Of a stretch of DNA of 20,325 nt, positions 433-7,335 are shown one piece after another; position 1 is the first letter of the stretch; each line of letters begins with the position of its first letter. The translations under genes and the position numbers were made by a program. Origin of the DNA: an uncultured Ruminococcus sp. (lineage in GTDB: Bacteria; Bacillota; Clostridia; Oscillospirales; Ruminococcaceae); the NCBI GenBank assembly GCA_947175005.1, contig CAMWLD010000004.1:1-20325 (forward strand). The letters are read 5' to 3'. A model generated the notes under the pieces. The model made no database searches and was not told the origin of the DNA. It saw only the letters and a program-made list of their open reading frames with translations.

Positions 433-690
433 ATGGCTGAAAGAAATCTTAGGAAAACAAGAGTAGGCAAGGTCGTATCCGACAAAATGGATAAGACTGT
501 GGTTGTCGCAATCCAGGACAACGTTAAGCACCCCCTTTACAAGAAGATCATCAAGAGAACCATTAAGCTCAAGGCGCACGATGAGAACAATGAGTGCAGG
601 ATCGGCGACAGAGTTGAGATAATGGAGACCCGTCCTTTGTCCAAGGACAAGAGATGGAGACTTGTACAGATCATCGAAAAGGCCAAGTAA
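433..690 (+). CDS. rpsQ: 30S ribosomal protein S17
   Basis: This is an 85-residue S17, a primary 16S rRNA-binding protein of the small-subunit body with an OB fold. Diagnostic segments are [31 protein letters not shown], and [23 protein letters not shown] 433 is chosen over the in-frame GTG at 409 because it is preceded by GGGAGG (418-423) at normal spacing and gives the family's usual N-terminus. It is the last gene before a 424-nt break. The E. coli S10 operon ends at this same gene. Confidence 0.97.
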
Positions 691-698: not shown

Positions 699-888
699 GT
701 GAGGGGTACGGCACGGGAGGCTGCGGCGCAGGGTTTACGGCAGCTGCAAAGATGCAGTTCGGCAGGAGGCAGGGACGTCGGGTTTCTGATGAATGCGGAA
801 TGGCAGTAATTGCCGGAAAGTTTCCGAAGAATTTTATATGTTCAAGGAAAATTAAAGAAAATTTTTTAAATAAATTTTCCGAAAACCC
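691..888 (+). other. gene-free spacer between rpsQ and the rplN promoter
   Basis: No coding sequence is supported here. It holds several short inverted repeats: CTGCA/TGCAG at 744-757, GGCA/TGCC at 802-814, and CGGAAAgTTTCCG at 814-826. An AT-rich inverted repeat GGAAAATT (846-853) / AATTTTCC (873-880) sits directly upstream of the promoter -35 box. The composition shifts from GC-rich (691-810) to very AT-rich (827-885). The AT-rich part can act as an UP element. The rest is unexplained. Confidence 0.6.
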
Positions 889-917
889 TTGACAAGCATG
901 CCCAAACGTGATATAAT
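864..917 (+). promoter_or_regulatory. consensus extended -10 promoter with AT-rich upstream element, driving rplN and downstream genes
   Basis: TTGACA (889-894), a 17-nt spacer and TATAAT (912-917) are perfect sigma-70/sigmaA hexamers. TG at 909-910 adds an extended -10 motif. An AT-rich tract at about 864-884 sits where an UP element would bind the alpha C-terminal domain. The predicted start is near 924, about 190 nt before rplN. In the E. coli layout the spc operon also starts between rpsQ and rplN. Confidence 0.88.
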
Positions 918-923
918 TTTAAT

Positions 924-1114
924 GTTGTTGTGTGAATGATTCAATTTGAGGAATGTATACGCCTCATTTCGGGAAACGCACGGCGGCGTTGAAACGTTAA
1001 AAATTAGTGAGATTCCGATATTGTGGCAGAAAATGCGAAGCGTTGTAAGACAATGCAAGGCGGTTTTCTGCCATGGTGTCGATATTCGCTGTTAAGGGAA
1101 GGAGTTTATGCGCT
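924..1114 (+). ncRNA. structured 5' leader of the rplN transcript (candidate ribosomal-protein leader)
   Basis: The untranslated leader contains three possible hairpins. They are TGAGG/CCTCA (947-966), AACGC/GCGTT (975-990), and a long hairpin at 1016-1081. In the long one, 1016-1033 pairs with 1064-1081 over 18 bp, including a perfect 10-bp core TGGCAGAAAA/TTTTCTGCCA and five G-U pairs. A short continuation 1034-1036/1060-1062 has a bulged G1063. Next come a 3x3 purine internal loop (GAA/AAG) and a 7-bp inner stem (1040-1046/1050-1056) closed by the triloop AAG. The structure ends about 12 nt before the ribosome binding site (1094-1104). Autoregulation by a ribosomal protein is an inference; I do not recognise a named RNA family. 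Confidence 0.55.
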
Positions 1115-1483
1115 GTGATACAGATGCAGACTTATTTAAAGGTCGCTGATAATACGGGTGCTAAGGAACTTATGTGTATCAGAGTTCTGGGCGGTACTCG
1201 CAGAAGATATGCGAACATCGGCGATGTGGTTGTTGCTTCGGTCAAAAAAGCAACACCAGGCGGCGTTGTTAAAAAGGGCGACGTTGTTAAGGCGGTTATC
1301 GTAAGATCCGCTAAGGGCGTCCGCAGAGAGGACGGCACATACATCCGCTTCGATGATAATGCAGCAGTTATCATCAAGGAGGACAAGAATCCCAGAGGAA
1401 CCCGTATCTTCGGGCCTGTGGCAAGAGAGCTGCGCGACAAGGACTATATGAAGATCCTGTCTCTGGCTCCTGAAGTACTTTAA
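1115..1483 (+). CDS. rplN: 50S ribosomal protein L14
   Basis: This is a 122-residue L14, the normal length. L14 lies at the subunit interface and forms bridge B8 with 16S rRNA; it also contacts L19. The start GTG 1115 gives [20 protein letters not shown] (initiator read as Met), matching the family's N-terminus, with AAGGGAAGGAG (1094-1104) about 10 nt upstream. The in-frame ATG at 1073 would add 14 unrelated residues and lies inside the leader hairpin, so it was rejected. This is the first gene after the internal promoter, as in spc operons. Confidence 0.97.
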
Positions 1484-2721: not shown

Positions 2722-3120
2722 ATGCAGATTACCGATTCAATTGCTGATATTCTTACAAGAATCCGCAACGCCAACACTGCTAAGCATCCCACTGTTGACG
2801 TGCCCGCTTCCAATATGAAGAAGGCTATCACTCAGATTCTTGTTGATGAAGGCTATATCAAGAGCTATCAGCTCATCGACGACGGCAAGCAGGGTATCAT
2901 CAGGATCACCCTCAAGTACGGCGAAAATAAATCGCAGGTCATCACCGGTCTGCGCAGAGTATCCAAGCCCGGTCTGAGAATTTATTCAAGCTGCGAGGAT
3001 ATGCCCAAGGTTATGAAGGGTCTCGGCATTGCTATCGTGTCCACGTCCAAGGGCGTTATGACCGATAAGAAGGCAAGAGAGCTTAACGTTGGCGGCGAAG
3101 TCCTTGCGTTTGTATGGTAA
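2722..3120 (+). CDS. rpsH: 30S ribosomal protein S8
   Basis: This is a 132-residue S8, a primary 16S rRNA-binding protein of the central domain. In E. coli it is also the translational repressor of the spc operon. Family segments include [40 protein letters not shown], and the C-terminal [21 protein letters not shown] strong AAGGAGG site (2708-2714) precedes ATG 2722. The 132-nt gap upstream is longer than usual within this operon and contains the heptad repeats. Confidence 0.98.
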
Positions 3121-6702: not shown

Positions 6703-7335
6703 ATGAATCTTATTCTTTTGGGCGCTCCGGGCGCAGGCAAGGGAACTCAGGCAGAGGTTATAAGCTCTAAACTGGGCATTCCTCAGATCTCTACAGGCAA
6801 TATCCTCAGAGCGGCTGTTAAAAACGGCACCGAGTGGGGTCTCAAGGCAAAGGCATTTATGGATGCGGGTGACCTTGTTCCCGATGATGTTGTTATAGGC
6901 ATTCTGAAAGACAGGATCGCCGAAAGCGACTGCGCTAAGGGATTTATCCTTGACGGCTTCCCCAGGACCGTTCCCCAGGCAGAGGCGCTGGAGACCATGG
7001 GCGTTGTCATTGACAAGGTTATCGAGATCTCCGTTCCCGATGAGGACATCAAGAACAGACTGGGCGGCAGAAGAGTCTGCGAAAGCTGCGGCGCTTCCTA
7101 TCATGTGGAGTTCAACCCCACTAAGGCAGAGGGCGTTTGCGACAAGTGCGGCGGCAAGGTAGTTCAGAGGGCGGATGACGCTCCCGAGACTGTTCTTAAC
7201 AGACTTGCGACCTACCACGAGGCTACCGCTCCTTTGGTGGATTTCTACAAGGGAAGAGGAAAGCTTACTACCGTAATAGGTCAGAGCGAGGTTTCCGATA
7301 CCTCCAAGCTGGTGCTTGACGCTGTTAATGCGTGA
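6703..7335 (+). CDS. adk: adenylate kinase, zinc-LID type
   Basis: This is a 210-residue cytosolic adenylate kinase (ATP + AMP = 2 ADP). The P-loop is GAPGAGKGT (residues 7-15), the AMP-binding segment is STGNILRAA (about 30-38), and FILDGFPRT (81-89) is the family signature. The LID domain holds four cysteines (C126, C129, C146, C149), the structural-zinc form common in Gram-positives. AAAGGA precedes ATG 6703. It follows secY in the common secY-adk-map-infA order. Confidence 0.98.

Follow-up and report, generated by a model that had tools for sequence, protein, structure and literature searches.

The gap between rpsQ and rplN in an uncultured Ruminococcus is predicted, from its sequence, to be a dedicated start point for transcription of the spc operon. 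With a probability of roughly 0.6, we propose that it combines an spc promoter, a WhiA-type operator just inside the transcribed region and a structural leader hairpin (P2) in front of the first gene of the operon. The DNA analysed (the window) is a stretch of 20,325 nucleotides, contig C4 of a 2.47 Mb assembly of 394 contigs that is 83% complete (G000 below; handles in G denote genomes, in C contigs and in L loci). Its features are collected in Table 1. Relatives found by an L14 search of named records were mostly uncultured Ruminococcus and other Clostridia, and a sample of 20 genomes of the genus, 16 of which gave a match to rplN, was used for comparison.

Table 1. Positions of the features discussed, in window coordinates unless a locus is named.
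Feature	Position	Strand	Basis or remark
rpsQ (S17), last gene of the S10 operon	433..690	+	Pfam Ribosomal_S17, E 4.2e-34
Predicted sigma-70 promoter, TTGACA-17-TATAAT with TG before the -10	889..917	+	12/12 consensus
P1, upstream arm	918..934	+	pairs with 977-993; only 924-934 would be transcribed
WhiA-like site	973..991	+	core GAAACGCA at 973-980, auxiliary GTTG at 988-991; overlaps the downstream arm of P1
P2, hairpin and outer stem (first described as 1016-1081)	1006..1090	+	fold, stems of relatives, covariation
Shine-Dalgarno sequence of rplN, GGAAGGAG	1097..1104	+	sequence
rplN (L14), first gene of the spc operon	1115..1483	+	GTG start at 1115; Pfam Ribosomal_L14, E 2e-57
rpsH (S8), downstream, also in the spc operon	2722..3120	+	Pfam Ribosomal_S8, E 8.9e-53
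adk (adenylate kinase), downstream in the ribosomal-protein cluster	6703..7335	+	Pfam ADK, E 3.1e-53
R3 loci	L276:232-314; L271:38-117 (minus); L259:38-119 (minus); L279:226-314; L320-L324; L261		

Predicted spc promoter and 5′ leader

Transcription from the promoter in the gap is predicted to begin at about position 924, which would give rplN a 5′ leader of about 190 nt, and the stretch 924-1120 folds more stably than shuffled sequence (z -4.2). Promoters that match the consensus at 10-12 of 12 positions stand before rplN in all 16 genus genomes with a readable rplN and in both genomes of a sister genus (G020 and G123). The 16 include G017, where rplN is separated from rpsQ and has as neighbours an opposite-strand gene and a GMP-synthetase-like gene (named by eye); here the promoter and the WhiA-like site described below are both kept. 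An AT-rich stretch lying 5′ of the -35 (window 858-895), with many partial matches in the genus genomes, several of them directly before TTGACA, is probably a common promoter upstream element.

A WhiA-like site downstream of the predicted start

By eye, conservation among the genus leaders is highest outside the hairpin, in the stretch GAwACrCACGGCnrCGTTG. In the window this strongly conserved leader sequence reads GAAACGCACGGCGGCGTTG (973-991), lies about 49 nt after the predicted start and ends about 14 nt upstream of the hairpin. We searched the 20 genus genomes for the pattern with up to three mismatches, using the reversed pattern as a control, and found it at 28 places in 13 genomes against 11 for the control. 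At two mismatches or fewer, 16 of 17 places were before rplN or rpsJ, the exception being on contig C1 of G018.

The rpsJ leaders of Clostridia carry at least 9 of the 11 core letters in 52 of 61 cases, compared with 65 of 1,220 random windows from the same loci. A 25-column matrix built from those 52 leaders, which do not include the window's genus, scored 24.9 bits at 970-994, the best position in the window; the runner-up, at 18.9 bits, lies in the coding sequence of rplN. The same matrix gave 15.3-26.0 bits in 15 of the 16 genus rplN leaders, and in the other (G011) the promoter is kept and the WhiA-like site lost (6.6 bits). Run over both strands of 80 named loci (1.16 Mb), it returned 98 matches above 15 bits. 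Coding-strand matches 5.0-6.2 kb upstream of rplN, the position of the rpsJ leader, account for 61; 32 fall inside rplN and 5 elsewhere. The matches inside rplN mean that part of the motif can come from a conserved peptide. In the window they correspond to 1250-1271, the rplN codons for ATPGGVV, which resemble the element and exceed 15 bits in 32 of the 80 named loci; this match is probably a coding coincidence.

A model of the rpsJ element matched at E ≤ 0.5 in 54 of 60 family genomes. Its best 30 places have E-values that are weak for each genome (0.0009-0.016). Of these, 26 map to the contig that carries rplN, 5.2-5.7 kb ahead of the gene; the remaining four comprise one directly before rpsJ (G166), two elsewhere (G061 and G067) and one that was not placed (G167). 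In the window's own genome, whose rpsJ leader was not found, a position on contig C94 that is not before a ribosomal-protein gene scored slightly better (E 0.059) than the window's site (E 0.074). Outside the genus, we scanned the rplN gaps of 27 of 28 loci (L070 was left out for a mismatched start pattern) and of 40 further loci, in which the parsed rpsQ-rplN gaps measured 24-131 nt, two gaps being left out. The element was present before rplN in 4 of these 67, namely G020 and G123 of the sister genus and G095 and G113, the latter pair with no promoter found by scan; it was present before rplN in none of the 80 named genome loci.

Several further occurrences were observed beyond the rplN leaders. 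In Clostridia rpsJ leaders, such as those of L047, L133, L160 and L177, GAAACRCMCGG-N4-GTKK stands close upstream of rpsJ, often just after an attenuator. One occurrence sits within the S10 operon itself: in L143, a Ruminococcus metagenome-assembled genome, the element, at 20.8 bits, stands in front of a gene named by eye as rplB (L2), about 3360 bases ahead of rplN. In L196, L198 (Gemmiger), L249 and L250, a look-alike of 11-23 bits takes up the S10 promoter spacer and overlaps the -35 and -10. A Clostridium record (L186:1-700) repeats the S10 leader, the second copy being fused to tuf-like sequence beside a run of N, which is likely to be an assembly artefact.

In Mycoplasma gallisepticum, according to Fisunov et al. 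(2024; PMC11701221), WhiA binds GAYACRCY together with a downstream GTTGT and represses the rpsJ operon; the core is described there as conserved before the rpsJ operon in most species that keep whiA, and the auxiliary motif as present in Firmicutes. The window core, GAAACGCA, agrees with GAYACRCY at only 6 of 8 positions, for which reason we call the site WhiA-like and do not regard its identity as proven. Only G008 has an exact core (GATACACC, 8 of 8). Across the 15 genus sites the core begins GATAC in nine and GAAAC in six, and the auxiliary motif is GTTG in 13 and GTGT in G019 and G001; that of the window is followed by A where the published motif has T, the two being compared by sequence and side. 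In 17 leaders the core starts 30-55 nt past the -10, or about 24-49 nt after the predicted start, and the WhiA sites of Mollicutes are placed 22-40 nt after the transcription start in the same paper. That paper also reports that a site 1 kb from the promoter had only a weak effect, so that initiation and not elongation is controlled; such control suits the sites before rplN better than those before rpsJ, which are placed past the attenuator. A whiA gene (HTH domain) was found in 19 of the 20 genus genomes, the window's own included, and was not found in G006, a genome that is 69% complete. We therefore consider 973-991 a probable WhiA operator. No report of a WhiA site at an rplN or spc promoter was found in the literature searched, which consisted of main texts, largely open-access.

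Two other readings of the element were rejected. A short upstream open reading frame (ETPGxV frame) was set aside because in-frame starts are missing in several loci (by eye); across the 52 rpsJ elements one codon of that frame varies more at its second position than at its third. Mimicry of 23S helix 39 was rejected because GAGACACACGGCGG, which E. coli 23S reads at position 940, is not what the one family 23S stretch displayed (L200, of 11 loci) reads. A search for 23S in the 20 genus assemblies found none.

Pairing of the site with the 5′ end of the RNA

The WhiA-like site overlaps an inverted repeat, P1, which forms 17 pairs in a fold begun at the -10 end and 8-9 in one begun at the predicted start. 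In minimum-energy folds, the first 25 nt of the RNA form 8-14 pairs with the site in 13 of 15 genus leaders (9 pairs in the window); G020 and G123 have 10 and 12. The idea that the sister genus lacks this pairing was dropped on finding these. Since the 5′ end pairs with the site in most leaders, part of the conservation of the site could come from RNA, and we have trimmed the weight given to WhiA and raised that of an RNA function for the same reason. On such an account, 973-991 would be an RNA common to the S10 and spc leaders, recognized either by a protein that binds RNA or through base pairing to the 5′ end, and not a DNA site for WhiA; the element does lie within transcribed leaders and, at rpsJ, downstream of the attenuator. 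We think this account possible but on balance unlikely. The site is kept in G013 and G017 with 1 and 0 such pairs, and the segment z is near zero or positive in G000, G010, G001, G020 and G123, although the 69-nt segment used trims some 5′ ends. In sequence, in the genes it accompanies and in its distance from the start, the element also resembles the operator DNA published for WhiA, which argues for a DNA site, as does the look-alike that related genera carry inside the S10 promoter spacer.

A covarying hairpin in front of rplN

An earlier note on this DNA had described a hairpin at 1016-1081, ending about 12 nt before the ribosome-binding site, and had put it forward as a ribosomal-protein leader. 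Its shape was reproduced by RNAfold, which gave 19 pairs, a bulge, 2 pairs, a 3x3 GAA/AAG internal loop, a 7-bp stem and a triloop at -35.2 kcal/mol (z -7.6), and it stood out from shuffled sequence (0 of 200 shuffles as good). Its extent had to be corrected. P2 continues outwards through an internal loop into a further stem, AGUGA (1006-1010) with UCGCU (1086-1090), and by way of this outer stem its base comes to within about 6 nt of the Shine-Dalgarno sequence. With G017 and G011 left out, the distance is 6-8 nt in 13 of 14 leaders; in the fourteenth, G002, it is 11 nt. The outer stem lies directly before TGTT in 15 of the 16 genus leaders, G011 being the exception, and the inner stem is also present in 13. 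Folding of the P2 region gave z values of -2.5 to -7.8 in 15 of the 16 and -0.5 in G017; the value for G011 comes from a different stretch and rests on other hairpins.

MAFFT failed to align the arms of P2 across the genus, and covariation was determined on hand-joined arms from 15 leaders, 11 of them distinct. Changes on both sides were found in 8 of 10 pairs, bearing out the compensatory changes expected of a leader RNA, and 99% of 98 cells were paired, a percentage inflated by our having picked the arms by eye from folds. Registers slid as controls gave 14-61% paired, and the covariation score was 0.542 against 0.279 ± 0.036 in shuffles. A covariance model of P2 (R2) trained on six leaders also found G018, G013, G001 (E 0.26) and the window (15.2 bits, E 0.71); it missed G006, G005, G010, G017, G011 and G002, and had no match in 68 loci of other genera. 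The window has no Rfam match at gathering thresholds, in agreement with the earlier note, whose author recognised no described family, and a lax scan of 680-1200 gave only five matches, all far below their cut-offs. Likewise, no leader before rplN was reported in the literature searched, largely open-access main texts, and those of PMC7247131 and PMC11109978 make no mention of rplN. As computed from these leaders, P2 is a covarying, lineage-specific leader hairpin that is kept as a structure and not as a sequence.

Such conservation weighs against P2 and its leader being a functionless insertion or repeat, which we judge highly improbable. The tip of P2 and much of 691-888 are indeed unshared by most genus leaders, but the stem is kept with compensatory changes within the genus, and the leader (900-1120) matches only itself in its own genome (E ≤ 0.001). 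A repeat element was rejected on the latter count, there being no second copy at that threshold.

What P2 may do

The earlier statement that P2 is not a terminator is upheld for the window genome: P2 is followed by no T run, and a terminator scan of 400-1500 called no site there, its one call being on the other strand inside rplN. In relatives, a T-rich tail (5-7 T in 8-base windows) follows P2 in 5 of 15 genus leaders (G006, G005, G010, G017 and G002), and in neither the window nor the other nine. P2 and its tail in G005 were called terminator-like on the coding strand (L040:1442-1475); none was called in G006. Because of these tails and the G005 site, we raised the odds that this strong leader hairpin is a transcription terminator or attenuator from next to nothing. 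With no tail in the window or the nine further leaders and a negative scan in the window, such a role is still very improbable for P2 in general; in some relatives the hairpin could serve as an attenuator.

A role of P2 as a switch acting on the Shine-Dalgarno sequence was rejected, since removal of P2 in silico changed the accessibility of that sequence in no consistent direction across 14 leaders.

The earlier note had suggested that P2 is bound by a ribosomal protein, naming S8 and L14 and pointing to the bulged G and the purine internal loop. An RNA leader in front of rplN is borne out by structure, position and covariation; its identity as a ribosomal-protein leader is not, as no ligand is indicated. 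If P2 were an autogenous leader, S8, L14 or another spc protein would bind it and block translation of rplN and the genes coupled to it. The base of P2, 6-8 nt before the Shine-Dalgarno sequence in 13 of 14 leaders, is well placed for this, the stem covaries, the operon encodes both L14 and S8, and spc control in B. subtilis or other species is stated to be unknown in PMC10931766. Against it, the 13 members with both stems assigned show no conserved unpaired nucleotide and differ in their loops and tips (by eye), and the hairpin is restricted to one lineage, with no match among the 68 loci of other genera. The features that had suggested a protein site, namely the bulged G, the purine loop and also the AAG triloop, are private to the window genome among the 16 genus leaders. 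No rRNA-like site was seen in P2 by eye, nor any likeness to the S8 site of 16S, and an S8 mimic was rejected for want of an AAG/UACU core (by eye). Autogenous control through P2 is in our view unlikely.

A three-way-junction RNA before rplN in other genera

Four other family genomes were observed to have in common an 84-nt three-way junction before rplN, from which we built a model, R3. Searched against 118 family genomes, it gave nine matches, eight of which (G022, G090, G083, G068, G060, G059, G144 and G024) are directly before rplN and one of which (G080) lies elsewhere. Together with G149, a training member, and G107, found among the loci, R3 precedes rplN in ten genomes of eight genera. 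In the fitted alignment (11 rows, G080 included), 16 of 18 pairs change on both sides, and the members before rplN have a common junction core of roughly U-R-AGCG, YAG and C-N-GG-N-A. Rfam gave one weak match for an RNA of the R3 type, below gathering, and R3 was not found in the 80 named loci, the window or the genus members searched. Mimicry of the S8 site looked possible for R3, but ACUGG varies among members. From its sequence, R3 looks a good candidate for a ribosomal-protein leader, more like a classical one than P2.

A model for spc control

The predicted promoter, the site, the hairpin and their conservation come from the analysis above; WhiA binding, the direction of control and the function of P2 are what we infer in the following scheme. 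A strong promoter in the rpsQ-rplN gap would produce an spc mRNA with a leader of about 190 nt. WhiA, bound about 49 bp past the start, would hold back initiation when ATP is low, by analogy with M. gallisepticum. With the S10 (rpsJ) and spc operons both under WhiA, one regulator would serve both halves of the cluster. The transcript would fold P2 with its base abutting the ribosome-binding site, where it would most likely protect the mRNA or set the spacing for ribosome entry. A version with two layers, an ATP-linked WhiA operator shared with S10 plus P2 bound by an spc protein that shuts translation of rplN, seems to us doubtful; if true, it would be the first autogenous spc leader outside the gammaproteobacteria. 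The scheme we prefer suggests that one DNA-binding protein can keep the two halves of the largest ribosomal cluster in step once they have come apart, as they have in G017, and an spc operon with its own promoter, a WhiA-like site shared with S10 and a covarying hairpin makes the question of spc control directly testable.

Comparison with known systems

The S10-Clostridia leader (RF03136), present in 5 of 5 genus rpsJ loci searched, is the leader of the neighbouring operon; P2 is a different RNA, RF03136 gave no hit in the window, and its own place is upstream of the WhiA-like element. A published motif in the rpsJ 5′ UTR, proposed as a ribosomal leader, is of another family and gene. R3 resembles P2 as a structured RNA just before the Shine-Dalgarno sequence of rplN, but its fold differs and it has conserved junction nucleotides; the four loci used to build it have no WhiA-like site above 10 bits. 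Control of the spc operon by S8 in E. coli concerns the same operon with the same first gene, but, according to PMC10931766, S8 binds at rplE, the third gene, whereas P2 precedes rplN and has no S8 site by eye.

The WhiA operator of the rpsJ operon, as described in PMC11701221, is the system closest in kind to the DNA site. The window's site differs from it in standing at a separate spc promoter before rplN, in two of the eight core positions and in being known here from sequence. The two sites resemble each other in a GAnACRC-type core and a downstream GTTG, and both lie just downstream of a ribosomal-protein promoter, with adk in the cluster and whiA in the genome.
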